A stretch of DNA of 64,000 nt. It comes from an uncultured Dehalococcoidia bacterium (GTDB taxonomy: Bacteria; Chloroflexota; Dehalococcoidia; Lucifugimonadales; G958296245). The stretch's first letter is position 1, and every line of letters starts with the position of its first letter. Below, one piece after another: positions 3,695 through 52,701 of the stretch. Made by a program: the position numbers and the translations under genes. The DNA is taken from positions 1,114,440 through 1,178,439 of the forward strand of contig OY282458.1 of the NCBI GenBank assembly GCA_958296245.1, in the 5' to 3' direction. The notes below the pieces were generated by a model. That model did no database searches, was not told the DNA's origin, and saw only the letters and a list, made by a program, of their open reading frames with translations.

Positions 3695-3706
3695 TGAGGG
3701 TAGTCA

Positions 3707-3735
3707 GGCCGGTCGCGAGAATTATCCAACCGGCC
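3707..3735. terminator. possible hairpin between Asp-box genes 1 and 2
   Basis: GGCCGGT at 3707-3713 is repeated inverted as ACCGGCC at 3729-3735, giving a 7-bp stem with a 15-base loop. There is no T-run, so factor-independent termination is doubtful; it may only mark the gene boundary. Confidence 0.25.
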
Positions 3736-3774
3736 GGTAGAGGCGCCGGGCGCGCCAAGAACGGAGGTTGACCT

Positions 3775-4863
3775 ATGGACGTAAGAGGGACGGGCCGCTG
3801 GATTCATCCTAAGGCTGCTGAGTTGGACATGCCCCTGGGCGTCGTGGGGCCTTTCGTCGAGCTGAGCGGCGGCGGCCTCATGATCGTCGAGCCGACTGGC
3901 GCCCGGACCAGCGATGACGACGGCAAGACCTGGTCGGAGCCCAGGCCGGTTACTGTCGGCCTCAAGTCGGGCATGGCGGAGGGCGGCATGTTGCTCAGGA
4001 CCAGAGACGGCGCCATCATCCTCATGTACGTCGACCGCAGCAACTTCTATTGGGTCTGGGATGACGCCACCGGGAAGCCCGCGGACAACGTCAGGGGCGA
4101 CGTGTGGTCGATTCGAAGCCTGGACGAGGGTAAGACGTGGACCGATCGTCAAATGGTCATGCAGGGCTACTGCGGCGCCATAATCACGATAATCCAGACC
4201 AGCACCGGCGAGGTCGTGGCGCCGGTGCAGAGGCTCTTATACGATCCCGGCCGCCATGCCACGTCCACCTACGTCTCCGCAGACGACGGCGCCAGTTGGA
4301 CGAACAGCAACACCATCGACCTCGGCGGGCACGGCCACCACGACGGCGCCTTCGAGGCAACGCTCGCCGAGCTCAAGGATGGGCGTTTGTTGATGCTGAT
4401 ACGCACCACGTTGGACAGGTTCTGGGAAGCATACTCGGAGGACAAGGGGCGCTCGTGGCTAGAGCTCAGGCCCTCCGACATCGACGCCAGCAACGCGCCC
4501 GGATACATGGCGCGCCTCTCCAGCGGGCGGCTGGCCCTGGTGTGGAACCGGCTTTACCCCCAGGGCGCGGCCATGACTCCCAGGCGCTCCGGGCAAGCCA
4601 CCCAGGCGGCGGCCAGCAACCACCGTGACGAGCTCTCCATCGCCTTCTCGGAAGACGAGGGGCAGAGTTGGTCTGCGCCGGTGGTCTTCGCCCGCAATCC
4701 GCGCCACCCAGGCAAGATGACACTGCCCGACGGCAGGGAGATGTGGGCGGGCGGGATCTCGTACCCCAAGATATTCGAGCGGCGGCCTGGGGAGCTGTGG
4801 ATCACCACCGGTTTCCAGGGCCATCTTCGGATCAGCATCCAAGAGAGCGACTTCGTCGATTAG
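3775..4863 (+). CDS. Asp-box (BNR) sialidase-like protein 2 of 3
   Basis: 362 residues, with ATG preceded by GGAGG about nine bases upstream. Five Asp boxes: TSDDDGKTW, IRSLDEGKTW, VSADDGASW, YSEDKGRSW and FSEDEGQSW. No signal peptide or membrane segment. It shares long collinear blocks with its neighbours at 2600 and 5030 (GYCGAIITI, HHDGAFEATL, TTGFQGHLRIS), so the trio arose by tandem duplication and has since diverged. The gaps between the genes (80 and 166 bases) and the separate ribosome binding sites allow cotranscription but do not prove it. Substrate unknown. Confidence 0.85.
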   Translation: MDVRGTGRWIHPKAAELDMPLGVVGPFVELSGGGLMIVEPTGARTSDDDGKTWSEPRPVTVGLKSGMAEGGMLLRTRDGAIILMYVDRSNFYWVWDDATGKPADNVRGDVWSIRSLDEGKTWTDRQMVMQGYCGAIITIIQTSTGEVVAPVQRLLYDPGRHATSTYVSADDGASWTNSNTIDLGGHGHHDGAFEATLAELKDGRLLMLIRTTLDRFWEAYSEDKGRSWLELRPSDIDASNAPGYMARLSSGRLALVWNRLYPQGAAMTPRRSGQATQAAASNHRDELSIAFSEDEGQSWSAPVVFARNPRHPGKMTLPDGREMWAGGISYPKIFERRPGELWITTGFQGHLRISIQESDFVD

Positions 4864-4916
4864 CAGGCTAGGAAATATGAGACGTGCAGAGGGGAATCGC
4901 CCCCTTTGCCGGGAGT

Positions 4917-4940
4917 CTGAGGGTGTCCCTCAGATATAAT
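4917..4940. promoter_or_regulatory. perfect palindrome abutting a TATAAT box
   Basis: CTGAGGG-TGT-CCCTCAG (4917-4933) is a perfect 7-bp inverted repeat. TATAAT begins one base later (4935-4940), 90 bases before the third Asp-box gene. No good -35 is visible at 17 bases. The arrangement fits an operator overlapping a promoter, or a terminator stem for the gene before; it lacks a T-run. Confidence 0.35.
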
Positions 4941-5029
4941 CTATTCCCATTCCCAGGCGGGAAGGGAGGGCTGCAAGGAACCGGAAGCGTTTTCCCGCAG
5001 CCGTTAGGTCAGACAGGAGGAATTTAGGA

Positions 5030-6070
5030 ATGTCTCCAAACAAGAGATGGATGGACCCGCGGTGCAAAGTCCTGGACATGCCCTATGGCGGGCGCTTCGT
5101 GGAACTGAGCGACGGCCGCCTGTTCACGGTGCAGAACAACACCACCCTTTACAGCAGCGACGACGGCAAGACCTGGGAGGACAGGGGCCCGGTCTATACG
5201 GGCCGCAAGCCTGGGGTCCCGGGGTCGGGTCCCATGATCAAGACCGAGGACGGGGTGATCGTTCTGCTCTACGCCGACATGAGCACCTTCAAGTCGTCGT
5301 CGCGGGGCTGGGTCGACGCAACCGGCAAAGCCCCCGACGACGTTCGCCTCGACGTGTGGAGCATCCGCAGCCTGGACGAAGGGGCGACCTGGCAAGACCG
5401 TCACCGCATCCTGGAGGGTTACTGCGGCGCCATGATCAACATGATCCAGATGAGCCGCAACGGTCCCATCGTCGCGCCGGTACAGGACCTGTGGTACGAC
5501 CCAGACCGCAACGTCCAACCGGTCTTTACGTCCGGCGACAACGGCAAGTCCTGGACCAAGAGCAACGTGATCGACCTGGGCGGCCACGGACACCACGACG
5601 GCGCTATGGAGTCGATCGTGATCGAGCTAAACGACCGCCGCGTCTGGATGCTCATCCGTACGAACTGGGACTACTTCTGGGAAGCCTACTCGATGGACGA
5701 GGGCCTGTCGTGGCGGATAATCCAGCCGACGACTATCGACGCCAGCAGCGCCCCCGGCTACATCCTCAGGCTGGCCAGCGGGCGCATCGTGTTGGTCTGG
5801 AACCGTCTCTACCCCGTGGGGCGAGACAGCTACCAGAGGCGCGCCGGCGCCTACTCCAACGTTGCGGGCAGTTGGCACCGCGAGGAGCTGTCCATAGCTT
5901 TCTCGGAAGACGACGGCAAGTCGTGGACCGATCCCGTGGTGCTGGCTAAGGAGGAAACCGGGCTGTCGTATCCTTACATCTTCGAGCGCCGCCCCGGCGA
6001 GATCTGGATAACGACCGGCTTCCAGGGAGCCCTACAGGTCGCTATCAGGGAAGAGGACTGGGTGGGATAA
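5030..6070 (+). CDS. Asp-box (BNR) sialidase-like protein 3 of 3
   Basis: 346 residues with a strong AGGAGG upstream. Asp boxes: YSSDDGKTW, IRSLDEGATW, TSGDNGKSW, YSMDEGLSW and FSEDDGKSW. It is the shortest of the trio and lacks an insertion before the last blade that the other two carry. It has no export signal. The aldolase-like gene follows after 30 bases, so the two are probably one transcript. That suggests the Asp-box proteins act in a small-molecule catabolic pathway rather than on host glycans, but this is inference from gene order. Confidence 0.85.
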   Translation: MSPNKRWMDPRCKVLDMPYGGRFVELSDGRLFTVQNNTTLYSSDDGKTWEDRGPVYTGRKPGVPGSGPMIKTEDGVIVLLYADMSTFKSSSRGWVDATGKAPDDVRLDVWSIRSLDEGATWQDRHRILEGYCGAMINMIQMSRNGPIVAPVQDLWYDPDRNVQPVFTSGDNGKSWTKSNVIDLGGHGHHDGAMESIVIELNDRRVWMLIRTNWDYFWEAYSMDEGLSWRIIQPTTIDASSAPGYILRLASGRIVLVWNRLYPVGRDSYQRRAGAYSNVAGSWHREELSIAFSEDDGKSWTDPVVLAKEETGLSYPYIFERRPGEIWITTGFQGALQVAIREEDWVG

Positions 6071-7290: not shown

Positions 7291-8403
7291 TCACTTCCCA
7301 TTCAGCCAACAAATGACTTGCTGCGTCCGATTATAAACCCGGGCCTTTGAGAGGTTCTTGCCCTGTGTCGTCTCTTTCCACAGACCCGCGGCCTTCATTT
7401 TGGTCTCCAGCCAACGCGCAGCCTCGATCTTCTCGTCGCCTGACCAACGCCCCTTGTCGACCTCGATGTATATCGCGGTTATTTCAGGCATCTTCCGGTC
7501 CTGCCGGCTATCGAGCAACTCCTCGATCTGCCTCTCTACCGGGCTGAGCTTTTCACGCGCTTTCGCCTTCTCCTCCCGACGGATGCGTTCCTCACGCTGT
7601 CGGTCAGCTTCGGCGGTCTGCTTCCTGAGCTTGTCGGTCTTGGAGCAGTCTAGAGCAAAGCGTCCGTAGCCGACCGCCGTCTTGGCCCCGGTCCCAGCCC
7701 ACTCCAACGCCTCATGGAGCCACTTCTTCACCATCTCCACGTCCGCCTTCGCCACTCCGCCGCGAGGCATGACGCCGAACAGGAACGATGTCCCAGCAGC
7801 GGTAACCAAGAAGGGGATCGGCGTCGGAGAGCGCCAGTCGCCCGGCGGGTCGTCCGCGGTCCAGCCGGCGTAGTGAGGAGTCATGACGTCGGCTTCGAGC
7901 TGCACGGGTTTGATGGGGATCGCGTCCAAGATGCAAGCCGTTCCCACTTGCCCGCTCGTCCCGAACAGGCGATTGGCAACCTCCTTCGTCACCCCCTCCT
8001 CTTTCGCCCAGGCGCCAATCATTCCCTTGATAGAGCTGCCCGGCAGGTACGGAGCGCCCAGCGTCGGATGCCAGGCGAACCCGTTCTCGACCGGATGACT
8101 GCGCCCCAGGCCCGTCACAAAGCGCGACTCCGCAGTGAGGACCGCACACGTCCCGCCGCGTCCCTCGACGAGACGCACCATCCGCAACGCGCTCTCCTCG
8201 ATCTGGTCTTTCGAGCCAACGGTTCCACGAGTGAGGGTTCGAATCCACTCGAGTTTTGAGTTGCGCAGGCCGTCACCCGACATGCTCCACGAATCGCCTT
8301 GCTCCCACTCGTTGCAGAACTTGTCGAACCACAAGCCGGCGTGCCCTTCGGCGACGCGCCCAGGCGGTGATGAGCTTGCATTGAGGTACAGCGGCAGGGT
8401 CAT
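7291..8403 (-). CDS. cmr6: type III-B CRISPR RAMP protein Cmr6
   Basis: 370 residues. The ATG at 8403 overlaps the cmr5 stop by four bases (ATGA); the longer open frame upstream only overlaps cmr5. The block ending LPGSSIKGMIGAWA is the RAMP glycine-rich region typical of Cmr6, and the protein has a long charged helical segment before the C-terminus. Cmr6 is a Cas7-family subunit that, with Cmr1, caps the head of the Cmr RNP around the 3' end of the crRNA. It is the last gene of the operon; the 92 bases downstream hold no repeats. Confidence 0.9.
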   Translation of the reverse strand: MTLPLYLNASSSPPGRVAEGHAGLWFDKFCNEWEQGDSWSMSGDGLRNSKLEWIRTLTRGTVGSKDQIEESALRMVRLVEGRGGTCAVLTAESRFVTGLGRSHPVENGFAWHPTLGAPYLPGSSIKGMIGAWAKEEGVTKEVANRLFGTSGQVGTACILDAIPIKPVQLEADVMTPHYAGWTADDPPGDWRSPTPIPFLVTAAGTSFLFGVMPRGGVAKADVEMVKKWLHEALEWAGTGAKTAVGYGRFALDCSKTDKLRKQTAEADRQREERIRREEKAKAREKLSPVERQIEELLDSRQDRKMPEITAIYIEVDKGRWSGDEKIEAARWLETKMKAAGLWKETTQGKNLSKARVYNRTQQVICWLNGK

Positions 8404-8810
8404 TCGCCGCCTCCGTCGTCGGCTGGGAGATAAGCGCGGCAGAACTTCTTGTGCCACTCCAGCCACGCCAAGGCCTCGCCCTGCGCGCGCAGGTAACGCG
8501 ACTGGTCGTTCTTCATGATGGCCGTCAGCAGGTCGGAGGCCGAAGGATATACGCCCCCGTCTTGCCGGCAGAGCCACTGCTTAACGCTGTTGTAAACCGC
8601 TCTGTGCGCCTTTTCTCTATCGTTTGAGGGACTTGGTCCCGATGCGGCGGTTTCCGTAGCCAGCGCCTGTCCCAGCCCGTTCATCAGTATAGACGGCCCC
8701 AGGGAGTCAACATACGAGCGGTACAGTGCCTTGAAATTGTCACCCCTGTTATTCAACTTGTTGACTCGATCCAAGGCGTTCTCCGCGCGCTGCTGTTGGA
8801 TAGTCCTCAC
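8400..8810 (-). CDS. cmr5: type III-B CRISPR small subunit Cmr5 (Cas11)
   Basis: 136 residues, mainly helical, beginning MRTIQQQRAENALDRV, which matches the usual Cmr5 N-terminus (an R-x-x-x-A helix). The family is 120-150 residues. Cmr5 binds along the target RNA as the Cas11-type filament of the complex. It overlaps cmr4 (ATGA at 8807-8810) and cmr6 (8400-8403) by four bases each, so translation is coupled. Assignment rests on position and N-terminal pattern because this subunit is poorly conserved. Confidence 0.85.
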   Translation of the reverse strand: MRTIQQQRAENALDRVNKLNNRGDNFKALYRSYVDSLGPSILMNGLGQALATETAASGPSPSNDREKAHRAVYNSVKQWLCRQDGGVYPSASDLLTAIMKNDQSRYLRAQGEALAWLEWHKKFCRAYLPADDGGGE

Positions 8811-9619
8811 TGCTCACCCCCTACGTTAGCGCTGCGGGAGTTGACCGCGAACCAGCCTTGCCCCACGGTCTCGTTGCCGCCGACTTGCAGATAGGGGTCG
8901 TTGCTTGGAAAGAGGCCGTCCAGCGCGCCGAGCGCGTCATCGCTGCGACCGGAGATGAGCGCGTACATCACTGTATCCGGCGGAAGCGTCTCTTCGTACC
9001 ACAGGCTCTTGCTCTTTTTGCCGTCTCCGAGCTTGTTGCGCGCCTGAACGGACAGGCCGTATCGGACGAACCACGCGAAGTCATTGTCGTTCAGGATCAC
9101 GATCTGATCACCCAATCGGCTCCTGGTATCTTCGTGGAGAATCAGCGGCTCTATCGAAGCAACCAGGCCGCCCGGTAGTTTGCCGTTGATACAGAACTGC
9201 CGCTCTTCCAGGAACATGTCGCCTTCGCCGGCCGCCAGCGCCTTTCCCTCTTCGACGTCCTGCTTCCCAGGCAAAGGACTCAGGCCGGCGCGGGTGAGGT
9301 CCCGACTATATCTTTCCAAGATGTGCGGACATGTCGCCCAGCGGTATGATGCAGTCAGGCTGCGGACGGGCAGTAGCAACAGGCGTCCATCCGAGACCAG
9401 GAGCTCGCCTGCTTTTTCCTGTTCGCCGAAGATGCGAGAGATGTCCAACCCATAAGTGTTCGCCTTGTCTCGAAGCGCGCCCTTCAGGCTGGAACCCACT
9501 ATCACCGGATAGTCGGTCGCGGCCTCGCGCGCCACCGGCAGGTCCACGACGCCCATTCCGCGTCCCGAGCCGGGATGGATAGCAGTCTCGGCCAGCAGGC
9601 CGAGCATGGTTGTTTTCAT
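8807..9619 (-). CDS. cmr4: type III-B CRISPR backbone subunit Cmr4 (Cas7), target RNA nuclease
   Basis: 270 residues from the ATG at 9619, which has GGAGG eight bases upstream; the longer frame overlaps cmr3. ETAIHPGSGRGMGVVDLPVA and VGSSLKGALRDKA are the Cmr4 signature blocks. Asp26 of this start falls at the position of the catalytic Asp known in other Cmr4 proteins, so target RNA cleavage at six-base intervals is expected. It is the one cmr gene with its own intergenic gap (14 bases) and a strong ribosome binding site, in keeping with being the multi-copy backbone. Confidence 0.93.
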   Translation of the reverse strand: MKTTMLGLLAETAIHPGSGRGMGVVDLPVAREAATDYPVIVGSSLKGALRDKANTYGLDISRIFGEQEKAGELLVSDGRLLLLPVRSLTASYRWATCPHILERYSRDLTRAGLSPLPGKQDVEEGKALAAGEGDMFLEERQFCINGKLPGGLVASIEPLILHEDTRSRLGDQIVILNDNDFAWFVRYGLSVQARNKLGDGKKSKSLWYEETLPPDTVMYALISGRSDDALGALDGLFPSNDPYLQVGGNETVGQGWFAVNSRSANVGGEQ

Positions 9620-9633
9620 CGCGTGTCCTCCTG

Positions 9634-10731
9634 TCAGTCGGGCCAGACGCCGAGCGCCGCTAGCCCGAAACCCCACTCCGTCCGCTTGCCGATGCGGGCC
9701 AGCCCGCTCTCTGTCGAAGCTGCTTGTGCAAGAAGATTCGGTTCGGATACCTTGCAGAACAGCACGCTTCCCGCCGGCAGTGTTGACCGAATCGGCAGCG
9801 GACGCCGCTTCAGCGAGTCCCAGCCGCCGATTCGCTGCGGCCGGCCCATGCAGGCGGAGACGACGCGGACGCCAAGGCCCGGGATCTCATCGTTGGGTCC
9901 GACCTCGACGTCCACCGGCGACAAGGCGATGATTGTCGCCCTGCCGCTCTCCTGGATAGCGCCGCTCTGCGATTCGATACCCACGGCTGAATCCCAACGC
10001 CGAAGCTCCGCGAGCCTGCTCTCGCCGCCCAGGGGCGTCATTTGTTCGAATGGCCATGCCCAGCTTTCGGGCAGACCCGATACATGCGCTCCAAGTGATA
10101 CGCCGGCCTCGAGGCGGACGTGTACGGTGCTATAGAGCATCCCTTCGCTTGCAGTACGCTTTTCCGTCTCGCGTTTCAGCCCTATCCTCGATTCCGACGA
10201 CCAGAGGCAGCGGCTCGGCACAACATCGTCCTGGCATGGGAGTTCGCCGCGCAACGCCGCGTTCAGTCCGGCAGCCGTAATCCATTCGCCATCGCCGGGC
10301 TTGAGCATCTCCGCGCCCTGAGTCGCCGATCCCAACTCCGGAAGACGAACTTCGCCGAGGTCGCACTCTACCGGCTGGCCGGGGCGCAGCAGGGCTTTGG
10401 GACACCATTTGCCGCGCTCGGTGACTCCGAGCAGGTGGCGGGGCATCCGGAACAGCGGCTGGCCGCAGCGAAGCAGGAACATGCCCTCAATCTTGACCTT
10501 ACCAAGGTCGTCGGGGCCGTCTCCTAGCGCGTCGCAGATTTCCTGAGACCATGGCTCAGCGCCGTCCCAGCCGTTGTTGCGAGCCAGCGCAGACCGCAGG
10601 GCGCCCACGACCGTGGGAGGATGCGGCGGAAACAGGCTTTCGACATCTTCCTGCGCTGCGGCGTCCATCGTGAACGGGGAGCCGTCCCGAAAGAACCAGG
10701 TATCTACCGGGCAGAGCTGAACGCCAGTCAT
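9634..10731 (-). CDS. cmr3: type III-B CRISPR protein Cmr3 (Cas5)
   Basis: 365 residues. The N-terminus carries DTWFFRDGSPF and FPPHPPTVVGALRSAL, the classic Cmr3 pattern of a RAMP fold with the glycine loop region. Cmr3 binds the 5' handle of the crRNA next to Cmr2. Its ATG overlaps the cmr2 stop by four bases. It ends 14 bases before cmr4. Confidence 0.92.
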   Translation of the reverse strand: MTGVQLCPVDTWFFRDGSPFTMDAAAQEDVESLFPPHPPTVVGALRSALARNNGWDGAEPWSQEICDALGDGPDDLGKVKIEGMFLLRCGQPLFRMPRHLLGVTERGKWCPKALLRPGQPVECDLGEVRLPELGSATQGAEMLKPGDGEWITAAGLNAALRGELPCQDDVVPSRCLWSSESRIGLKRETEKRTASEGMLYSTVHVRLEAGVSLGAHVSGLPESWAWPFEQMTPLGGESRLAELRRWDSAVGIESQSGAIQESGRATIIALSPVDVEVGPNDEIPGLGVRVVSACMGRPQRIGGWDSLKRRPLPIRSTLPAGSVLFCKVSEPNLLAQAASTESGLARIGKRTEWGFGLAALGVWPD

Positions 10732-12650
10732 CGGTATGCCTCTTGGTCGTCAGGGTCAGCTAGGAACCGCGCGAGCAGAAGCGCGTCGATGCCGGCTTCG
10801 GTGATTCTGCCGCCGCCGCCTTCCGCCGGCTGTGGGTTGCGGGCAGGGGAAAGGAGACTGACGACACGGGAAGCGAGGGACTCGGCGCGTTTCGCCGCGC
10901 GTTCGCCCATCCTGATGTCCAGGCTGCGAAATATCTCGGCCTGCAGGAACGGATAAAGGTCGATGCCCTTGGGAACGGCGCCCCACTCGCCGGGCCGCCA
11001 TCTGTCCCAGCCGCAGAGCATCGAGAGGGTATCCCGAATCCGATAGACCAACGACGACGAAAGCCCGGGCTCCGCCGCGTTGTGGTTCAGGGCCGACTTC
11101 AGCTGATCTAGCAGAGCCACGGCGCGGTCCTCGCCACTCGGGCCTCGAGTCCACGTAGTAACCCATTGGCAGTGCTTCCCGGCCGGCTTCAGCACCGACA
11201 CGGCTAACGAGTTCCGCCCGTTGCCGTCCTTGGCGACGTCGTCCAGCATGTGATGCGCCTCCCGGAGGACCGAGCTGAGAGGCAGCCGCGCATGAGCGAA
11301 AACGACTGCAGCGGACAGGGTCGCCTCGTCACTGACGCCAGTGAAGGCGTTCTTGTAAGCCTCCGAGATCTCATCAGCACATGTCAGCGCCCTTGGTACG
11401 GAAACCATCGCCAGCACGTCGTCGCCCCCGGCATAGATCGGCACCCCGTCATGGCCGCTCACGACCTTCGGGACCCTATCCGTGAACTTGGTCAGGGCTT
11501 TGCTCACGACGTCGCCCCCAGCCGCGCCAACCAACTTCCCCAATCTATCGCCGTCGGCCAGCAGCAGCGCATAGAACAAGCCCGGCGGCCCCAGCGGCTT
11601 ATCCTGTGCATCCTTCGTATCGGAGATGCGCTTCAACGCGCCGGCCAACTCCTCCCGCTTATCTTGGCCCACGCCGTCCTCCAGCGGAGACAGCCGCTCG
11701 TCCAACACGAAGCCGCTGCGCATGTAGTTTGCGTCCAGCTTCGGGAAGTCGCCGGACTCTGGCGCGAGCAGACAGTCGAATGGCGGGGACTGCATGGGGA
11801 ACACGTCACTCTGCGCGCTCTGCCGGACTGTCTTCGCATACTCCCTAGCGTGGCCCGGCGCTGCTGAAACTACGCGGCGGATCCACGGTACGGCGGCGAT
11901 ATATACAGTCGAGGGCCAGCGCGAGGCATAGACAGCCCAGCCCAGCGCGTCCTTCGCTACCCTCGGAAACATCCGCTTCACCAGCGCGATGGCGCACAGC
12001 CGCTCGTTGTCCTGTAGGTCAAGGCCTCGGATGCGGCACCGGATGCGTTCCCAGAACTGGTCCTGCTTGGCTCTGTCTTGGGCGCGGATGAACCCCGATA
12101 GCTCCTGCAAGTCATGCATGATGGAGCACTTGTCGCCGGGCTCGTCGGGGGGGCGATGGCTGCGCCAATGCTTGCGGCGCGCAAGCAGGCCGCCGCCTCC
12201 GTTATCGGAAGGCCCGGCAGTCCACGTCACTTCCCAGAACCTGCACACCTGCCGATCCCAGATGTCCTTTGTTCCGTTTCCGTCCGAGGCTGCATGTTCG
12301 ACGAAGCAGCGCCATACGGCGTCGCAGACCTGCCCCCATGCTACGCGCAACGAATCCGTGGCGGCAGCCGCTATGGGCCTTGGGTCGCCGTCGGTCTCGA
12401 CTACGAAGTGGTTCGGCAAAGTGCCTATTCGAGGCGGGTCGCCCTCGCGTTCCTCACAGACCCACTTGAAGAGCGGATCATTGTCAACTTTGGGCTGGAC
12501 GATCTTGCCCCCAGCCCTTTTCGCGCCGCGCATGGCGTGAGCCGACAGGAACGCCAGCAGATACGAGCTGCCCCACAGGTCGCGCGTGCGGCGAGACTGC
12601 GATACGAAACCCTGCACAGGCCCTATGGAGATGTCGAGGCGCGTACTCAT
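10728..12650 (-). CDS. cmr2: type III-B CRISPR Cas10 subunit Cmr2, cyclase-competent, no HD domain seen
   Basis: 640 residues, shorter than HD-bearing Cmr2 proteins such as the 871-residue Pyrococcus one. It starts directly with ISIGPVQGFVSQSRRTRDLW, the block that follows the HD domain in longer homologues, so single-stranded DNA cleavage is unlikely. The palm domain is intact: LLADGDRLG (364-372) and YAGGDDVLA (406-414) with the GGDD metal motif. It should therefore make cyclic oligoadenylate when target RNA binds. This fits the CARF protein that heads the operon. It overlaps cmr1 and cmr3 by four bases each. Confidence 0.93.
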   Translation of the reverse strand: MSTRLDISIGPVQGFVSQSRRTRDLWGSSYLLAFLSAHAMRGAKRAGGKIVQPKVDNDPLFKWVCEEREGDPPRIGTLPNHFVVETDGDPRPIAAAATDSLRVAWGQVCDAVWRCFVEHAASDGNGTKDIWDRQVCRFWEVTWTAGPSDNGGGGLLARRKHWRSHRPPDEPGDKCSIMHDLQELSGFIRAQDRAKQDQFWERIRCRIRGLDLQDNERLCAIALVKRMFPRVAKDALGWAVYASRWPSTVYIAAVPWIRRVVSAAPGHAREYAKTVRQSAQSDVFPMQSPPFDCLLAPESGDFPKLDANYMRSGFVLDERLSPLEDGVGQDKREELAGALKRISDTKDAQDKPLGPPGLFYALLLADGDRLGKLVGAAGGDVVSKALTKFTDRVPKVVSGHDGVPIYAGGDDVLAMVSVPRALTCADEISEAYKNAFTGVSDEATLSAAVVFAHARLPLSSVLREAHHMLDDVAKDGNGRNSLAVSVLKPAGKHCQWVTTWTRGPSGEDRAVALLDQLKSALNHNAAEPGLSSSLVYRIRDTLSMLCGWDRWRPGEWGAVPKGIDLYPFLQAEIFRSLDIRMGERAAKRAESLASRVVSLLSPARNPQPAEGGGGRITEAGIDALLLARFLADPDDQEAYR

Positions 12651-13795
12651 AGACGAACTTCCAGGGTTTGTGCGAATCGTTCCTTGCGCCTGTTCGGCTC
12701 TATAAGACGATCCAGGAAGTCATGTATTGGCTGATATAGTTCCTTCTCCGTCGCCTGACCAATCTTACTGCCGCCCACGTTGATGTCGGAGCGCCCCTCG
12801 GGGAGGAACCGAGCCGGAAGAAACGACAGGACCGCGACAGGCGTTTCGCCGCACTGGTGAACATGGATGAACAGCGGGCTGGCGCGCCGGTCGAGGTTGC
12901 GGTCATGAGGGCCAACCTGCTTGCCGCTTCCTCCGCCATAGTTGTGAGGCAGGCCAAAGGCGATGCGTCGGGGGTGAGACCGGCGGGTGTGGCTTTGAGC
13001 CTTCATCAGGTCATGGTCGTCCTTGAAATTGCCCTCCGACGGGCTTCCCAAAACTCTCCCGTTATGCCCCCAGCTTCGATACCTGACCATCTCACTCCCA
13101 ACCCGGTTCAGCAGCTCGATGGGGTCAATCTTGCCGGCGGTCAGCAGCACATGTCGCGCCCCCTTGGTCAAGGCGGTGTATTTAGGCAAGCCCCCCGGCG
13201 CGTCGTTGACTCGCAGCTTCACAATCTGGTCGTGAAGTTCGAGCGCAGACCGCAGCGCCTGCCACTGCTCCACATCGTCCACCTTCAGCGACTGCAGCGC
13301 CAGAGAGCCGTACCCCTTGCGGCTCTTCGCGCCCATCCCGCCGAAGACACCCAGCGCGGTCATCGCGTCCAGAAGCGAGTTGCGCCGTGCCTCATCGAGG
13401 TCGCGGGCACGCATCCGAACCGTGAAGTCGAAGAAGTCGAAAGGCGCCTCAAGGCAATGACGTTCGCGTGGTCCTTGCTCCATGACGCCGTATCCAAGGT
13501 ATTTCGCGCCCGGGCCGGCCCTTAGCGAGTTGCCCGCTTGGATCTGCGGCTTCACGTAGTCCGTGAGCCGCATTGAGACGCGCGACTGCCCCATGTCGGC
13601 GCTGCCGAAGAGCTCGTCCTCCTCATGTTTGATTGCCTCGAGGTCGCCATTTCGCCGCGGCCATGCGAGCGCCCGCCACCAGAACCGCAGGACGCCCTTG
13701 AAGCTGGGGAGACGCAGCTCGGCGTCTGCCGGATTGGCTCCCCCGCAGAACATGGGTGTCGTGACCTGGTAGGTTGCCTCAATCACGGTTGGCAT
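12647..13795 (-). CDS. cmr1: type III-B CRISPR RAMP protein Cmr1
   Basis: 382 residues if started at the ATG at 13795, which is spaced six bases from GGAGG; ATGs at 13801 and 13813 are in frame, but the first touches the Shine-Dalgarno and the second lies beyond it. PTVIEATYQVTTPMFCGGA and LPSFKGVLRFWWRAL are the Cmr1 hallmarks (RAMP fold with the FKGxLRFWWR loop). Cmr1 sits at the head of the complex. Its start overlaps the end of the CARF gene by 17 bases and its stop overlaps cmr2 by four. Confidence 0.92.
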   Translation of the reverse strand: MPTVIEATYQVTTPMFCGGANPADAELRLPSFKGVLRFWWRALAWPRRNGDLEAIKHEEDELFGSADMGQSRVSMRLTDYVKPQIQAGNSLRAGPGAKYLGYGVMEQGPRERHCLEAPFDFFDFTVRMRARDLDEARRNSLLDAMTALGVFGGMGAKSRKGYGSLALQSLKVDDVEQWQALRSALELHDQIVKLRVNDAPGGLPKYTALTKGARHVLLTAGKIDPIELLNRVGSEMVRYRSWGHNGRVLGSPSEGNFKDDHDLMKAQSHTRRSHPRRIAFGLPHNYGGGSGKQVGPHDRNLDRRASPLFIHVHQCGETPVAVLSFLPARFLPEGRSDINVGGSKIGQATEKELYQPIHDFLDRLIEPNRRKERFAQTLEVRL

Positions 13796-15593
13796 CGTCA
13801 TCCTCCGGCCCATCGAGCCAGAACGGCTCGCCGGCTTGGTAGGGGTCGGCGTCCTGTTGGTCTGTGGGTCGGCGGTCTATCAATCCGAATCGACGCGTCG
13901 GGCGAGCGAAACGGCGCGCTTCTGACGCAATCGCCTCGGCGGCCAAGCCCATCAGCGTCGTACCGCCGGTCACGTTGACGACCACCTCATCCGCGCCTAT
14001 GAGATGCTTCCGGGCGTCCTTCACAAGCCGCTCGATCTCCTCGCTTCCGCCTCCAAAGGCGTCTTTGAGGAGCAGCGGTTCGAACCTGCCGCCATATCCC
14101 GCTTGCTTCAACGCCCCGTCAATCTTGTCCTCGGACTTTTTTGAGCAGATGATGAGGCACGTCGTCGGCTCTTCTAGGTTCTCGCCCGCCTGACACGCCA
14201 TCACGGCGCTGAACAGCACGCCGGGGCGCAAGCCAATCGGACTGACCAGGACTAGGCCGCCGGGCGAATCGCCGATGGACAGCGGGAAGCCGGGCAGCGA
14301 TTTCAGCGTCGTATCCCAATACTTGCGAATCTTGTCAACTTTCCCGTTGATGTTCTTGTCGCTGATGAGATCCTGCGGCCTCATTCCATAATGGCTATAT
14401 CCATTGCGTAGCTCGGTCAATTCATTCCAGAAGTCACCCAGCGACCGTTGTTCTTCGGTCAGGTCGGCGCGAAGCTCTGGCGTCTTACGGATGGCGGCGA
14501 TTGCGCCGAGCAGACTTGCCGCCCGCTTCCTTACCTTGCGATAGTTGAGCCATTCGGCATCAGGGCGCCGGCGCCAGATGACCCACGAAACCGTCCACTC
14601 GTTCATCAGCCCTAGAGCCGTGGCCGTGTGTCCGTGGTTCAGGAGGTCATCTATGATGCAGGCTTGCCGCAAGAGCTCGCCTTCTGAGAGGGCAATGCCC
14701 TTCTTCAATACCTGCCTGGCAACCGGCGCCCCCAGCTCGAAGGGCTTGATTATCTCGGCAAGCTGGTCACGCAACTCCCGTTCGAGAGGCAGGCGTCCGA
14801 GCGGCTTGTTACGCTCGCTCATCTTCCGGGCCTGCAACCCCAACTCCAACGGCAGGCCGGAGAGATACGCCTCTGACAGGCGCCTCAAGTCTCGCGAGAT
14901 GTCGCGTGCGACCGGCGCGGCCTGTGAATCGGCTTCCAGCAATTCTGCCATCGGCAAGGCGCTGCCGGTCTCTCCCAAGACCTCCAGAGCATGGACCCAG
15001 CGAGGCAGCTCCAGAAGCGGGCGCAGATCGAGGAAAGGACTCGGCGCGTCCCGATTCAGCAGGCCGTAGTACGCGCCGCGAACCTGAACCCCGCGCAGCG
15101 CGGCCAGATAGAGCACGGAGACATAGGTGAGGAAGGAGAGGTGCCTGAATCCGTGCGTAACGTCCACGGTCAGGTCAACGTCGCGCGGGACAGCGCGGGT
15201 AACTGCCTCTAGGAACTTGGCGATGCCGTCTTGATCATCTCCGGCCGGGACGTCGACCGGCTCTACGCAGAACCGACCCCGGAGCAACTCCTCGAGTTTG
15301 GGCCAGGTCTCATTCCTCGCCTCTGGCGTGCATAGAGCCAACACGCGATCCGGCCGCTCCTCCTCCGGCAGAAGCTCGACAAGGGCGACCGGGGCGAGGT
15401 CAGACTCGACCTCCTTGCCGTTCAGGGTGTACCGCGCTTTCCCCGCCCCCATCCCGAGCACAGTAAGCATCAGCCGACCGGGTTGGCCCGTAGAAGTCAC
15501 TGTCTCCAACTTCTCAAGAACGTTCTTGGACGGCATACCAGTTCGTTCCTGTAGAGAGCCGGCGCGGAGATGTGATTCGCCGATCACAAGCAT
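13779..15593 (-). CDS. CRISPR-associated CARF-HEPN protein with a second, C-terminal CARF-like domain
   Basis: 604 residues. Residues 41-180 form an N-terminal CARF of the DxTHG type (VDVTHGFRHLSFLTYVS at 143-159). Residues about 230-430 are helical and contain RNGYSH (396-401), an R-x4-H HEPN ribonuclease motif. Residues 446-575 are again alpha/beta with VVVNVTGGTTLMGLAAEAI (537-555), the glycine-rich signature seen in Csm6/Csx1-type CARF domains. Known Csx1/Csm6 proteins are activated by cyclic oligoadenylate and cut RNA; a CARF on each side of the HEPN is not the usual architecture. It leads the cmr operon. The start could also be the ATG at 15536. Confidence 0.82.
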   Translation of the reverse strand: MLVIGESHLRAGSLQERTGMPSKNVLEKLETVTSTGQPGRLMLTVLGMGAGKARYTLNGKEVESDLAPVALVELLPEEERPDRVLALCTPEARNETWPKLEELLRGRFCVEPVDVPAGDDQDGIAKFLEAVTRAVPRDVDLTVDVTHGFRHLSFLTYVSVLYLAALRGVQVRGAYYGLLNRDAPSPFLDLRPLLELPRWVHALEVLGETGSALPMAELLEADSQAAPVARDISRDLRRLSEAYLSGLPLELGLQARKMSERNKPLGRLPLERELRDQLAEIIKPFELGAPVARQVLKKGIALSEGELLRQACIIDDLLNHGHTATALGLMNEWTVSWVIWRRRPDAEWLNYRKVRKRAASLLGAIAAIRKTPELRADLTEEQRSLGDFWNELTELRNGYSHYGMRPQDLISDKNINGKVDKIRKYWDTTLKSLPGFPLSIGDSPGGLVLVSPIGLRPGVLFSAVMACQAGENLEEPTTCLIICSKKSEDKIDGALKQAGYGGRFEPLLLKDAFGGGSEEIERLVKDARKHLIGADEVVVNVTGGTTLMGLAAEAIASEARRFARPTRRFGLIDRRPTDQQDADPYQAGEPFWLDGPEDDDANRD

Positions 15594-15686: not shown

Positions 15687-17524
15687 GTGTCAGACATAAC
15701 AGATAAACAGGCTATCAGTCCGACCCTGCAGGCCATTCGCGCCAGTCTTGACCTGACGCAGCAGCAGCTCGCTGAGCGGCTGGGGGTCTCGTTCGCCACG
15801 GTGAACCGCTGGGAGGGCGGCGCTACCATGCCCCAGAAGGCGGCGCGGACGGCCATTGCCGCGCTGGCCGCCGAGGCCGGCATCGACGCTAAGCAGCCAG
15901 CCGTCAATGGGACCGGGCCGGCGGCCCGCGTGACCGGCAGGCGGTCGCGGCGGCGCCAGGCGTCCGTTCCATCCACCAAACCCATGGAGCAGATGCTGTG
16001 GGACGCCGCCTGCTCCATCCGAGGCGAAAAGGACGCGGCCAAGTTCAAGGACTACCTGCTGCCGCTCCTCTTCCTGAAGCGCCTCTCCGACGTTTTCGAC
16101 GACGAGATCGACCGGCTGGCCGAGGAGTTCGGGGACCGGGCGGCCGCGCAGGAGATCGCGGAGAGCGACCACGAACTGCTGCGCTTCTACCTGCCGCCGG
16201 AAGCCCGGTGGGGAGCCGTCAGCGGTCGCGATGATTACGACTGGCCCCTCGACGAACAGGGACGCAGCACCCGCCCGATGGACGTCGGCGAGCATCTCAC
16301 CAGGGCGGTGCGGGCCGTGGTCCGCTACAACCCCACCCTCTCCGGCGTCATCGACATTGTGGACTTCGCGTCCGACCGCAACGGCGAGCGGGACGTGAAC
16401 CCGGCTCGGCTCGCCGCCGTAGTGGAGACCTTCTCCGATCCTCGATACCGGCTCGGCCTCGCCGACGTGCAGCCCGACTTCCTGGGCCGCGCCTACGAGT
16501 ACCTGCTCCGCAAGTTCGCGGAAGGCTCCGGCCAGAGCGCGGGCGAGTTCTTCACGCCCACCGAGGTCGGCTTCCTGATGGCGCACCTGATGCGCCCGAG
16601 GCCCGGCGAGGGCTGCCACGACTACGCCTGCGGCTCGGTCGGGCTGCTCATCAAGCTCCAGCTCGTCGCCCGCGAACTGGACCCCACCAGCCGCGTGCCC
16701 CTCAAGCTCTACGGGCAGGAGCTGCAGGCCGACAGCTACGCCGTCGCCCACATGAACGCCATCATCCACGACATGGAGGTCCGGGTCGAGCGCGGCGACA
16801 CCATGATAAACCCCAAGTTCAAGACCGCCGCAGGCCGAATCGCCGCCCACGACGTCGTGGTCGCCAATCCGATGTGGAACCAGGACTTCAACCCGGACGT
16901 CTTCGCCAACGACCCGTTCGACCGCTTCCGCACCGCCGGCGGCGTCACCACCGGCAAGGGCGACTGGGCCTGGCTCCAGCACACCCTGGCCTGCATGAAC
17001 GAGCGCGGACGGGCGGCGGTGGTGCTGGACACCGGCGCGGTGACTCGCGGCTCAGGCAGCAAGAACGAGGACAGGGAGCGCAACATACGCAAGTGGTTCG
17101 TCGACCGCGACCTGATCGACGGCGTGATCCTGCTGCCGGACAACCTCTTCTACAACACGAGCGCCGCCGGAATCGTCGTCGTGCTGTCGAAGCGCAAGCC
17201 GGAGGCCCGCAAGGGCAAGATCGTGCTCCTGAACGCCAGCCGCCGCGTGCGAAAGGGCCGCCCCAAGAATTTCATCCCCCAGGAGGACATCCAACCGCTG
17301 GCAAATATGTTCCTCAAGGGCGAGCCGGTCGAGGGCGAGGTCGCCGTCATCACGCGGGAGCAGGCACAGCAGGCGGACTACAACCTCGGCCCGAGCCGGT
17401 GGGTGGGGCTGGCGGACGCCGTCGCTCAACGTCCGCTCACGGAGATCATTGACGAGATGCAGAGCCTCGGTGAAGAGGCCCGCGAGGTGGATGCGTTGCT
17501 GGCCAGAATGCTGGTGCGTCTCCA

Positions 17525-17528
<4 letters not shown>
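15687..17528 (+). CDS. hsdM: type I restriction-modification methyltransferase subunit with N-terminal HTH
   Basis: 613 residues. Residues 11-65 form an XRE-type helix-turn-helix ([20 protein letters not shown]), linked by a basic stretch (RRSRRRQ) to an HsdM N-terminal domain (from about 100). The N6-adenine methylase core follows: FFTPTEV, motif I DYACGSVG (312-319; usual DPACGSGG) and motif IV NPMW (394-397; usual NPPF/Y). The HTH may let the methylase control its own divergent promoter region; this is inference. It starts with GTG and has no Shine-Dalgarno. The stop overlaps hsdS by four bases. It shares a 93-base intergenic region with the CRISPR operon. Confidence 0.92.
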
Positions 17529-18823
<1,295 letters not shown>

Positions 18824-18849
18824 AATTCAAGAGCGCTACGATCAAGGGC

Positions 18850-18946
18850 CGGCGCGGCGGGCATGGGCTGTTCGGGGTTGCGCAGGCCGGGTCATGGCCG
18901 GGCAGTAGGTCAGCGAGCGCACCATCGAGGAGTTGAGCGCCGAAAT
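18850..18946 (+). pseudogene. remnant of an AlbA_2/Schlafen-like gene (middle part)
   Basis: This stretch matches 20345-20441 inside the intact ATPase gene: the GGCGGGC...CTGTTCGGGGT block and the run encoding VSERTIEELSAE are both present. The frame is broken between them and an in-frame stop follows. Its end (GAAATGGAGGAGC) provides the ribosome binding site of the nucleotidyltransferase gene at 18961. It is the first of two broken relatives of the gene at 20230. Confidence 0.7.
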
Positions 18947-18960
18947 GGAGGAGCAGAGCA

Positions 18961-19272
18961 ATGAATCCGCAGGTATCGGTCCCCGGTGACGCTATCGCCG
19001 CGTTCTGCCAAGAGCACGGGATCAAGCGGCTCGCCATCTTTGGCTCGGCGCTGCGTGAGGACTTTGGGCCGGAGAGCGATATAGACGTGCTCGTCGATTT
19101 CGAGCCGGATCGCATTCCTGGGCTGTTGGGCGTCGCCGGCATGGAGTTGGAGTTGTCCGAGGTCCTTGGCAGAGACGTGGACCTGGTAACCCGCGCGGCC
19201 GTGCAGGAGAGCCGAAATTACATTCGTCGCAGGTCTATCCTTGAATCGGCAGAGGTGGTCTATGGAACGTGA
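18961..19272 (+). CDS. MNT-type minimal nucleotidyltransferase (antitoxin-like)
   Basis: 103 residues with ATG nine bases after GGAGG. The core GSALREDFGPESDIDVLVDF is the GSx(10)DxD nucleotidyltransferase motif with both metal aspartates. Such small proteins are usually the antitoxin half of HepT-MntA pairs and AMPylate the HEPN toxin. The expected HepT gene is absent: upstream is a gene relic, downstream a second relic begins eight bases after the stop. The gene may be an orphan or serve the restriction locus. Confidence 0.8.
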   Translation: MNPQVSVPGDAIAAFCQEHGIKRLAIFGSALREDFGPESDIDVLVDFEPDRIPGLLGVAGMELELSEVLGRDVDLVTRAAVQESRNYIRRRSILESAEVVYGT

Positions 19273-19279
19273 CGGCGCC

Positions 19280-19449
19280 ATGACGCCTGATCAACTCACA
19301 TCCCTTGCCGCCTCCGGCGAGTCAGAGACGCTGGAGTTCAAGGCCACCACCGGGACGCGCCGCGAGGCGGCTAGGGCAGTGTGCGCCTTCCTGAACCGGC
19401 GCGGCGGGCGGGCGCTGTTCGGGGTGACGCAGGCCGGGGCCGCGGATTA
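19280..19449 (+). pseudogene. truncated 5' end of an AlbA_2/Schlafen-like gene
   Basis: From the ATG at 19280 about 55 codons match the start of the intact gene at 20230 (SGESETLEFKATTGTRREAA against TGESETLEFKETTGTRREAA), with about 85 % base identity. Homology stops near 19446, exactly where the convergent vapC gene ends; beyond this the frame runs antisense to vapBC and is meaningless. The copy is therefore cut by the toxin-antitoxin pair. Confidence 0.75.
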
Positions 19450-19833
19450 CCAGAGGCGGCGAACGCCGTACCGGTCGAAGAGCGACTCAATGGAGATGAA
19501 CGTCAGGTTGCGCGACAACGCCTGGGCTATGAGCATTCGGTCGAAGGGGTCGCGGAGGGGGCCCGGCAGGGCTCCGGCGCGGGCGGCGTCAACTACGGTT
19601 ATCGGCAGCTCCTCGAAGTTCTCGCTGGCTATGTGGCCGGCAATGTCCTCGGCCAGACCTTCCGCGTCGGGGAGTCTGCGGGCGCGGTATTTGGCGGCGA
19701 TTTCCCAGGCCGACACCGCGCTGACCAGCACGTCGTTTTCCCCATCCGATATCGCGCGCCGGGCGGCCGCTGATAAGCGTTTGCTGCCGGCGGACCACCA
19801 GATGAACGTGTGGGTATCCAGCAGAAGGCGCAC
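19447..19833 (-). CDS. vapC: PIN-domain ribonuclease toxin, VapC family
   Basis: 128 residues, GTG start. The PIN acidic residues are visible: LLLDTHTFIWW (Asp6), SAWEIA (Glu) and DPFDRMLIAQA (two Asp), as expected for a magnesium-dependent RNase that cuts tRNA or other RNA. It follows its antitoxin gene by three bases. The pair lies antisense inside the hsdS-hsdR interval, between a truncated and an intact AlbA-type gene. Confidence 0.88.
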   Translation of the reverse strand: MRLLLDTHTFIWWSAGSKRLSAAARRAISDGENDVLVSAVSAWEIAAKYRARRLPDAEGLAEDIAGHIASENFEELPITVVDAARAGALPGPLRDPFDRMLIAQALSRNLTFISIESLFDRYGVRRLW

Positions 19834-19836
19834 AGG

Positions 19837-20091
19837 CTACGCCCTTCCCTCCCACGCGGCCAGATCCTCCTCCGGCAGCGGGTCGAAGAAGAAGCTGTCG
19901 TCGAACACGGCTTCGTCCAGCTCGATCCGGCCCTTCCACGAGCCTGGCAGCCGCTTCCCGCGAGGCCGGCAACTCACCAGTCGGGCGACCGGAGCGCCGT
20001 TGCGAGCTATGATGACCTCTTCCCCGGCCTCCACCTGCGCCAGCAGGCGCGACAGATGGGTCTTCGCTTCATGCACATTTACCGTTACCAC
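19837..20091 (-). CDS. Phd/YefM-type antitoxin
   Basis: 84 residues from a GTG at 20091 with GAGGAG upstream. The N-terminal VNVHEAKTHLSRLLAQVEAG and EEVIIARNGAPVARLV are the Phd/YefM dimerisation and DNA-binding fold; the acidic C-terminus (DDSFFFDPLPEEDLAAWEG) should wrap the PIN toxin. It is expected to repress its own operon with VapC. Confidence 0.88.
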   Translation of the reverse strand: MVTVNVHEAKTHLSRLLAQVEAGEEVIIARNGAPVARLVSCRPRGKRLPGSWKGRIELDEAVFDDSFFFDPLPEEDLAAWEGRA

Positions 20092-20229
20092 CGCCGGCTC
20101 CTCGAGGACAAGGTTAGCTAACGGTATGACTAGCAGGGGAGGCTGTCAAGCGAAGCAGCCGCCCGTGAGCGCGCTTCACGCGGGGGAAGATGCGCCGGGC
20201 ATCCGCTCAGAAAGTGCGAGGTCACTATC

Positions 20230-21639
20230 TTGACGCCCGATGAGATAGCCGCTCTCGTTATGACCGGCGAGTCCGAGACGCTGGAGTTCAAGGAAACCAC
20301 CGGGACGCGCCGCGAGGCAGCTAGGACGGTGTGCGCCTTCCTGAACCAGCGCGGCGGGCAGGTGCTGTTCGGGGTGACGCCGGCCGGCGCCGCGGCTGGG
20401 CAACAGGTCAGCGAGCGCACCATCGAGGAGTTGAGCGCCGAGCTCCAACGAATCGACCCTCCGGCATTTCCGACGGTCGAACGGGTCCGCGTGGACGGCG
20501 GCCGCGAGGTAATCGTAGTCAGCGCGGGCCAGGGCACGTCGAGGCCGTATGCCTACCGAGGCAATGCCTACCGCCGGGTCGGAAACGCCACGCGGGAAAT
20601 GTCCGCAGACGAATACAACCGTATGCTCTTCGAGCGGATGCACAGTGAGCAGCGTTGGGAGAATCAGCCCGCCGCAGAGTGGTCGGTCGATGACCTCGAC
20701 GTAGCGGAAATTCGACGGACGGTCGCCGAAGCCGTCAGGCGCGGGCGGCTTGAGGAGCCTGTAAGCGGGGACCCTTCCGACCTGCTGCGCGGACTGGGCC
20801 TTATGCGTGACGGCGTGCTGTTTCGGGCGGCGGCGGTGCTGTTTGGGAGCGCGGAGCGGCTGGAGTTCGAGATGCCGCAGTGCTTGCTGCGCGTCGCCCG
20901 TTTCCGTGGGTCAGACCGTATGGAGTTTCTGGACAACCGCCAATTCAACGGAAACGCCTTTGCTCTCCTCGCAAACGCGGAGCGCTTCCTGCGAGAAACC
21001 CTGCCCATAGCCGGGCGATTCGAACAGGACCGCTTCGAGCGGGTGGACGAACCCCTGTATCCACCTCTGGCCACACGCGAGGCATTTGCGAACGCCCTGT
21101 GCCACCGCGACTATTCCATCGGCGGCGGCTCGGTTGGCATAGCGACTTACGATGACCGCCTGGAGGTGACCTCCTCCGGCTCACTGCACTTCGGCTTGAC
21201 CCCGGAGAAGCTGTTCTCCCCGCACGAGTCGCGGCCGTGGAATCCGTTGATCGCCCGCACCTTCTACAGGCGCGGGGTCATCGAGGAATGGGGAAACGGG
21301 ACGCTGAAGATGGCTGCATTGACCAGCGAGGCGGGGCTCCCGGTGCCGGAGATAGAGGACGACGGCCTATGCGTCACCGTGCGGTTCCGGAACGTCCGAT
21401 TCGTGCACCAGCCAGGTGACGGCAAAGTCAGCCCCGCCCAGAGACGGGAGGCGGTCCTCGTCCTGCTGGATGGCACGGAGGATGGTTTGACACGCCGCGA
21501 AATTCACGCCCGATTGGGTCCCGGCGTCAGCGAGCGGCAGGTGCGGAGGACACTGGGGGAGTTGAAAGACAGAGGGTTGATTGTGCTCACGAATCGCGGA
21601 CGGTTGACGCGCTGGAGACGCGGGCAGGGGGCGCGATAG
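20230..21639 (+). CDS. AlbA_2/Schlafen-like ATP-binding protein with C-terminal winged helix
   Basis: 469 residues, TTG start (the related fragment at 19280 has ATG at the same place). Residues 1-130 are an AlbA_2 domain (GESETLEFKETTG, FLNQRGGQVLFGV); about 260-400 carry the COG2865-type ATPase region (ATREAFANALCHRDYSIGGG, GNGTLKM); the last 60 residues form a winged helix (LTRREIHARLGPGVSERQVR). Such proteins often lie beside type I restriction genes and toxin-antitoxin loci; their role is not settled. The gene ends inside the first units of the minisatellite that follows. Confidence 0.85.
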   Translation: MTPDEIAALVMTGESETLEFKETTGTRREAARTVCAFLNQRGGQVLFGVTPAGAAAGQQVSERTIEELSAELQRIDPPAFPTVERVRVDGGREVIVVSAGQGTSRPYAYRGNAYRRVGNATREMSADEYNRMLFERMHSEQRWENQPAAEWSVDDLDVAEIRRTVAEAVRRGRLEEPVSGDPSDLLRGLGLMRDGVLFRAAAVLFGSAERLEFEMPQCLLRVARFRGSDRMEFLDNRQFNGNAFALLANAERFLRETLPIAGRFEQDRFERVDEPLYPPLATREAFANALCHRDYSIGGGSVGIATYDDRLEVTSSGSLHFGLTPEKLFSPHESRPWNPLIARTFYRRGVIEEWGNGTLKMAALTSEAGLPVPEIEDDGLCVTVRFRNVRFVHQPGDGKVSPAQRREAVLVLLDGTEDGLTRREIHARLGPGVSERQVRRTLGELKDRGLIVLTNRGRLTRWRRGQGAR

Positions 21640-21904
21640 GGGCGCGATAGGGGCGCGATTTGGGGGCGCGATAGGGGCGCGATAAGGGGCGCGATAAGGG
21701 GCGTGATGGGGGCGCGATTTAGGGGGCACGATAGGGGGCACGATAGGGGCGCGATAAGGGGCGCGATAGGGGCGCGATAGGGGGCGTGATGGGGGCGCGA
21801 TTTAGGGGCGCGATGGGGGCACGATAGGGGCACGATAGGGGCACGATAAGGGGCGCGATGGGGGCGCGATGGGGGCACGATGGGGGCACGATAGGGGCGC
21901 GATG
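21627..21904. repeat. minisatellite, 24 units of a 10-14 base motif GGGGCGCGATA
   Basis: About 24 head-to-tail units of GGGGC(G/A)CGAT followed by nothing, A, AA or TTTA run from the last codons of the ATPase gene to 20 bases before hsdR. Unit lengths vary (10, 11, 12, 14), and GCGTGAT and GCACGAT variants are interspersed. There are no spacers, so it is not a CRISPR array. Stops occur in every plus-strand frame. Confidence 0.95.
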
Positions 21905-21924
21905 GGTCTTACCGGAGTCCGGCC

Positions 21925-24916
<2,992 letters not shown>

Positions 24917-24924
<8 letters not shown>

Positions 24925-29467: not shown

Positions 29468-29532
29468 CGTGAAACTCCTCCGAAGTCCGTCTGATTCTTT
29501 TCTTCCATCCTGTCCCGAACCACGCTCGTATG

Positions 29533-31085: not shown

Positions 31086-31150
31086 CGTGAAAGTCCTCCG
31101 AAGTCCGTCTGATTCTTTTCTTCCATCCTGTCCCGAACCACGCTCGTATG

Positions 31151-50472: not shown

Positions 50473-50661
50473 TGAGGATGCTCCGCTTTCTCTATGCGCG
50501 CGGTGCGGAATGGTTCTTCCGCAGCTATGGGATGTTCAGGAGCGGGAGCTTAGGATGGCGGCTGTTTCCTCCCTAATCCTTGTGTTACGATTTGCAGCGA
50601 TTCGGCTACGTGGGGATGCCGGCGGTAGATCACCTTGAAGCTACCCAATGAGGAGCGAAGC

Positions 50662-52560: not shown

Positions 52561-52701
52561 CGCAAGGCTGCCAAGGGATGGGGAATCAAAGACGTCTGCT
52601 TTATCGGGGCTGCGCTACAAACGGGTCGTCGCGCGTCACGGCTGGCGGCGTGGCAACGTTTATCGAAGCGACACTCTCAGCTACCCAATGAGGAGCGAAG
52701 C

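Follow-up and report, generated by a model that had tools for sequence, protein, structure and literature searches.

What does a second CARF domain contribute behind the HEPN nuclease of a type III CRISPR effector? The question is raised by a csx1-like gene of an uncultured Dehalococcoidia bacterium, which we analysed within a window of 64,000 nucleotides (i.e., the whole stretch of DNA under study, whose positions are used below unless another region is named). A preliminary description of this DNA had reported a chain of 604 residues with CARF domains on both sides of a HEPN domain, and had proposed it as a candidate for a new effector architecture in which the second CARF would be a ring nuclease or a second sensor.

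Domain layout of the effector

The open reading frame, of 604 codons on the minus strand, lies at the coordinates reported earlier, and its sequence carries the three motifs at the residues given for them (D144-V-T-H-G148, R396-N-G-Y-S-H401 and V539-N-V-T-G-G-T-T-L-M548). The flanking of HEPN by two CARF domains is upheld by profiles, by conservation and by AlphaFold2 modelling with structure comparison. The features of the gene are as follows.

13779..15593, minus strand: csx1-like effector gene, CARF-HEPN-CARF, 604 aa (ORF reading and profile matches); start possibly downstream, at M20 or later
15009..15476, minus strand: N-terminal CARF, CARF2 clade, TIGR02221/DxTHG type, predicted cOA sensor (residues 40-195; profiles and model)
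15150..15164, minus strand: DxTHG motif (residues 144-148; sequence), with D144, T146 and G148 invariant in 10 homologues
14694..15008, minus strand: helical CARF-to-HEPN linker, equivalent to the HTH region of Csx1-Crn2 (residues 196-300; model, 8y75 CARF-HTH over 38-288)
14289..14693, minus strand: HEPN ribonuclease domain (residues 301-435; 8y7f against model residues 195-438, Z 15.9)
14391..14408, minus strand: HEPN active-site motif R396-N-G-Y-S-H401, with R396, N397 and H401 invariant in 10 homologues
13803..14264, minus strand: C-terminal CARF, fold nearest the Can2/Card1 CARF (residues 444-597; models and structure comparison)
14205..14243, minus strand: motif I of the C-terminal CARF, SPIGLRPGVLFSA, without Gly-Thr-Ser (residues 451-463; homologue alignment)
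13950..13976, minus strand: motif II of the C-terminal CARF, NVTGGTTLM, with Thr546 at the Can2/Crn1 lysine position (residues 540-548; alignment)
13842..13895, minus strand: invariant signature RR-x2-L-x-D-x-R-x4-Q-x3-P, located on the fifth strand of the C-terminal CARF and beyond it (residues 567-584; alignment)

Residues 1-35 are of very low confidence in the AlphaFold2 model and the alignment of close relatives begins only at about residue 32, suggesting that translation probably starts downstream of the first ATG, at M20 or later. The N-terminal part matched TIGR02221 with 73.5 bits, slightly below the curated cut-off of 76.25 (NCBIfam, E 2.4e-20), and the DxTHG domain above its cut-off (NCBIfam, E 4.6e-8). 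Pfam returned just a sub-threshold CARF_Card1 match at the C-terminal motif, and a PDB sequence search with the full chain gave no significant match. The motifs are not a product of chance, given the profile E-values and the invariance of D144, T146, R396, H401, G543 and G544 across 10 full-length homologues, the most distant of which are 22-29% identical per domain.

The full chain was modelled from an alignment of 14 homologues (AlphaFold2; mean pLDDT 82, pTM 0.74), and ends after the C-terminal CARF. Residues 38-439 best matched the Marinitoga Csx1-Crn2 fusion (8y7g; Z 17.3, rmsd 4.6, 376 aligned). We assign the C-terminal half to the CARF domains because the full-chain and stand-alone models both best match the Can2/Card1 CARF: residues 444-597 of the full chain matched the Can2 CARF (8q3z; Z 15.6, rmsd 2.5, 134 aligned), and the domain modelled alone (pLDDT 86.6, pTM 0.84) again matched Can2/Card1 (Z 14.0-15.3), with Z of 12.0-12.7 against the Crn1 ring nucleases Sso2081/Sis0455. 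The Rossmann CARF fold described earlier for the C-terminal ~160 residues is thus what structure prediction returns, and the two models together with structure comparison rule out a false Rossmann match.

The claim of a new architecture did not survive comparison with PADLOC-DB, which holds three CARF2--CARF_HEPN_CARF models of the same full-length layout, with no architectural difference from the effector: PDLC01840 (E 7.9e-136, protein 39-594, profile 4-544 of 547), PDLC01839 (E 4.2e-75) and PDLC01838 (E 4.3e-38). The nearest full-chain structure, Csx1-Crn2 of Marinitoga (8y6z, 8y7g; PMC7293037), likewise has CARF-HTH-HEPN and a second cOA-handling domain after HEPN; that domain is Crn2, with an AcrIII-1 fold and a catalytic His, whereas the one here is a CARF Rossmann domain without known catalytic residues. 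Csm6-2 (CARF-HEPN-CARF-HEPN; PMC11229360) also combines two CARFs and HEPN in one chain, but it repeats the whole CARF-HEPN unit in a tandem fusion and belongs to type III-D loci, while the effector has one HEPN and two unlike CARFs in type III-B. A full-text literature search, with subscription papers mostly outside its coverage, found no experimental characterisation of CARF-HEPN-CARF. The only match for that term was Csm6-2, a different protein (PMC11229360), and a second or C-terminal CARF was treated in papers on Can1 and Can2 and in the same survey (PMC11229360). The layout is already catalogued but apparently never bench-tested; the motif loss and family signature of the C-terminal CARF, considered below, may be the new part.

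Operon, genome context and relatives

The effector gene heads a type III-B operon, with cmr1-cmr6 downstream on the same strand, each matched by its own family.

12647..13813, minus strand: cmr1 ORF, overlapping the end of the effector gene (family profiles)
10728..12650, minus strand: cmr2/cas10, with GGDD palm motif, beginning directly with Cmr2_N (family profiles and sequence)
9634..10731, minus strand: cmr3 (family profiles)
8807..9676, minus strand: cmr4 (family profiles)
8400..8810, minus strand: cmr5 (family profiles)
7291..8577, minus strand: cmr6 ORF (family profiles)

The second palm of Cas10 bears GGDD in its sequence (PF22335, E 2.1e-31). Since a Pfam profile search detected no HD domain in Cas10, cyclic oligoadenylate signalling is likely the operon's principal means of killing, with the effector as its executor. 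An N-terminal CARF followed by HEPN, an R-x4-6-H motif and a type III locus with a GGDD-palm Cas10 are the marks of Csx1, and we hold it almost certain that the effector is a Csx1-class protein with a CARF-HEPN-CARF layout; by analogy, it is predicted to be a cA4-switched RNase.

No standalone ring nuclease gene is visible within the cmr operon. An AcrIII-1/Crn2 model, whose control worked, matched nothing in the genome. The models for Crn1-like (PF09651) and Csx3 (PF09620) proteins, also run against the whole genome, returned no hits, but as no control genome gave a signal either, this result does not show that such genes are absent. Crn2, Crn1-like and Csx3 were the types covered genome-wide.

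No CRISPR array was found in the window itself or in the 40 kb to its left and right. Elsewhere in the same genome, stretches around the cas1 loci were examined, and G000:C1 982863-1004602 (L060, L054) carries an array of 300 repeats with a period of mostly 71-75 nt, next to a 617-aa ORF with Cas1 that looks like Cas4-Cas1; further neighbours resemble Cas3 and Csx17, which by eye indicates type I-G. On the minus strand, the repeat end reads ATTGAAGC, which resembles a type III 5' handle; crRNAs from the L060/L054 array might therefore serve the cmr complex. At G000:C1 576866-583063 (L056), an array of some 26 repeats accompanies a 1073-aa Cas9-like ORF, and at G000:C1 2088138-2093142 (L058) a cas1 is accompanied by two arrays, with about 50 and 13 repeats (GGTTCCCCCGCACACGCGGG). 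With the III-B operon included, the genome seems to hold four CRISPR systems.

Several other features of the window were observed. Type I restriction-modification genes, recognised by eye, adjoin the cmr operon at 15687-24924 (hsdM-like with an N-terminal HTH, hsdS-like and hsdR-like), with small toxin-antitoxin-like and AlbA-like ORFs between them; the beginning of the AlbA-like domain occurs twice (19314-19445 and 20264-20395). Just upstream of the 999-aa hsdR-like ORF, positions 21596-21914 form a dense imperfect tandem repeat with an 11-13 nt unit (GGGGCGCGATA and variants). Three tandem paralogous blocks at 2874-5797, sialidase-like repeats by eye, share 65-74% DNA identity over 300 nt. 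The regions 27258-31220 and 46106-46743 contain gene-sized blocks in three near-identical copies, ~1.1 and 1.6 kb apart, and a 127-134 nt G+C-rich repeat array, to which a further copy at 36352 is related. Finally, 50639-54012 holds a 2 kb direct duplication (90-94%), inside which 78-nt repeats would encode GGLVGxN...GxIxxSYx units.

A genome scan returned five relatives of the effector, including Dehalococcoidia (85% best-segment identity), Vicinamibacteria (56%), Binatia (54%) and a Proteobacteria MAG (39%). The gene of the fifth, in a second Acidobacteriota genome (L006 4800-6741), is on its sequence broken or mis-assembled, as its reading frame is interrupted, leaving pieces of 389 and 227 codons. 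L007, L036 and L037, plus the divergent L065 and L066, came from whole-genome searches; L035 was left out of the count as probably the same gene as L002. The aligned set is made up of nine intact relatives of the same layout from several phyla and the window protein, i.e., 10 full-length members.

Judged by eye from N-terminal sequences, with no family search, the frame after the effector at L002, L003, L004 and L005 overlaps the effector frame and reads as cmr1, and the next frames at L002, L003 and L005 read as cmr2 then cmr3. The order effector-cmr1-cmr2-cmr3 thereby occurs at Chloroflexota, Binatota and Pseudomonadota loci and effector-cmr1 at Acidobacteriota loci, with cmr1 directly 3' of the effector wherever the flanking DNA of the relatives is long enough. 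Other matches in 400 Chloroflexota genomes were mostly plain CARF-HEPN proteins of ~380-500 aa without the C-terminal motif, plasmid matches stop inside the CARF-HEPN part, and viral contigs scanned with the full effector and with the C-terminal domain yielded nothing. In a CARF-HEPN tree, in which L010 and L033 are the identical sequence, one change suffices for the gain of the C-terminal CARF, at weak support (68/28) and with L065 and L066 long-branched; this topology is compatible with a single gain. The divergent CARF-HEPN-CARF gene of L065 has a neighbour encoded on the other strand, a Can2-like CARF ORF with NVTGGTKIM (L065 2283-3455).

Motifs and conservation of the C-terminal CARF

Ring-cleaving CARFs are marked by Gly-Thr-Ser in motif I, their signature, and by Lys106 in motif II, and Can2 and Card1, which are without the GTS motif, leave cA4 uncleaved (PMC10018336). 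The C-terminal domain shares the CARF Rossmann fold with the Crn1 ring nucleases (Sso2081, Sis0455; Z 12.0-13.1), but neither of their motifs is present. Motif I reads SPIG-L-R-PG, with G454-L455-R456 instead of GTS. Across the 10 members its Thr/Ser positions are LR, LR, HR, KR, NR, TA, MT, LS, LS and TS, so that Ser occurs in 3/10 and the full GTS in one, the divergent L066. Motif II is NxTGGTT, and profile alignment places Thr546 on the Can2-like lysine without gaps (TGGTT to TGGTK); this position is Thr in nine of the 10 members and Lys in none. Can2/Card1 CARFs (8q3z, 6xl1), the nearest folds to residues 444-597 (Z 14-15.6, rmsd 2.4-2.8), have NxTGGT in common with the effector, but combine the motif-II lysine with a PD-(D/E)XK nuclease where the effector has Thr546 and HEPN. 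With GLR in place of GTS and Thr546 in place of the motif-II lysine, the sequence does not support Crn1 chemistry for this domain; the missing motifs weigh against Crn1-type ring cleavage and would leave room for other chemistry.

The domain is nonetheless conserved. In all 10 members, 16 of its residues are invariant (G454, G458, V459, S484, A534, T542, G543, G544, A556, R567, R568, L571, D573, R575, Q580 and P584). Identity to the window protein is similar in the C-terminal and N-terminal CARFs, both for L002 (0.93 vs 0.90) and for L066 (0.27 vs 0.29). Nei-Gojobori (NG86) dN/dS values over usable pairs were 0.20-0.35 for the C-terminal CARF, 0.22-0.27 for the N-terminal CARF and 0.14-0.39 for HEPN, figures that are rough as several pairs are near synonymous-site saturation. 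By these comparisons, purifying selection acts on the C-terminal CARF as it does on the other domains, and the domain is maintained rather than decaying. R567-R568-x2-L-x-D-x-R-x4-Q-x3-P584 constitutes the CARF-HEPN-CARF family's own invariant signature (10 members) and was not seen in the Can2-like CARF set that was aligned.

In hhalign, the profile of the C-terminal CARF fits the Can2-like set (probability 96.7, E 4.6e-10) better than the N-terminal CARF (93.0, E 3.4e-7), a modest gap from small alignments. The C-terminal CARF therefore more likely stems from another CARF clade than the N-terminal one, and a recent internal duplication of the latter is less likely.

A possible built-in off-switch or second sensor

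We lean, a little short of even chances, towards the C-terminal CARF being an off-switch that would bind and slowly cleave the cOA ring via non-Crn1 residues. Target RNA would activate the HD-less Cas10, and the GGDD palm would produce cyclic oligoadenylate, probably cA4, as this is the Csx1-family ligand. Two effector chains would pair via their N-terminal CARFs and HEPNs, and cOA at the N-terminal CARF dimer would open the composite HEPN site R396/H401, which would then cut RNA non-specifically. The fused C-terminal CARF dimer would give the effector a further cOA site, working as Crn2 does in Csx1-Crn2 but without relying on the GTS/Lys residues of Crn1, and signal strength and duration would thereby be set inside a single protein. 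The basis of this scheme in sequence and models is the domain layout, the folds, the intact HEPN and Cas10 palm motifs, the operon position and conservation; the ligand, dimerisation, RNase activity and off-switch role are what we infer.

The off-switch is favoured because known ring nucleases recur fused to CARF-HEPN, an architectural analogy. Crn2 follows HEPN in Csx1-Crn2 (PMC7293037), the PADLOC-DB models CARF_HEPN_CSX3, _CSX16 and _CSX20 describe CARF_HEPN carrying Csx3, Csx16 or Csx20, and both Csx16 and Csx20 cleave cA4 in vitro (PMC12409355). The lack of a visible ring nuclease gene in the operon and of an AcrIII-1/Crn2 match in the genome also supports it. Against it stand the change of GTS to GLR and of the motif-II lysine to Thr546, and the nearest folds, Can2/Card1, which leave cA4 intact.

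The same observations speak for a close rival that we rank behind the off-switch as a lesser but real possibility, in which the C-terminal CARF leaves the ring uncut and acts as a second allosteric sensor or as a sponge that retains the ligand; it would bind cOA, perhaps of another size, and tune HEPN or buffer the ligand. Its fold is nearest to Can2/Card1 (Z 14-15.6 vs 12-13 for Crn1), whose CARFs bind cA4 and do not cut it (PMC10018336), both ring-nuclease motifs are absent, and Csx15 has been put forward as a possible cOA sponge (PMC12409355). However, the Z gaps are small, the sister architectures fuse known ring nucleases to CARF-HEPN, and the motif-II lysine kept by Can2/Card1 is also lost, so Can2-like binding would require other residues. 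More tentative, and on balance unlikely, is the idea that a new active site, built on RR-x2-L-x-D-x-R-x4-Q-x3-P instead of the Crn1 motifs, lets the domain cleave rings or sense a ring of another size.

That the domain has lost its ligand function and serves dimerisation or the anchoring of a complex would agree with the replaced Crn1 motif I and II residues and with the dimerisation of CARF domains in known structures. We consider this improbable: G454, G458, T542, G543, G544, R567, R568, D573, R575, Q580 and P584 are invariant across homologues of 22-29% identity, which, with an omega like that of the other domains, suggests a working site. That both CARFs of one chain pair, as they do in monomeric Can1, and share one asymmetric site for the ligand is very improbable even though Can1 and Csm6-2 are fused CARF pairs acting in one chain (PMC9704534; PMC11229360), because both also double the effector domain while the one HEPN here needs a partner chain, and the two CARFs look unlike in clade (CARF2/TIGR02221 vs nearest Can2/Card1).

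How type III RNases limit self-damage is an active question. Should the C-terminal CARF prove to cleave the ring despite lacking the Crn1 motifs, the sequence motif rule for CARF ring nucleases would need revision, and a new site on the family signature would make the effector an RNase that times itself through two CARF sites of different chemistry, one to turn it on and the other to turn it off. If it does not cleave, the protein would be a two-sensor effector, or an effector with a built-in sponge.
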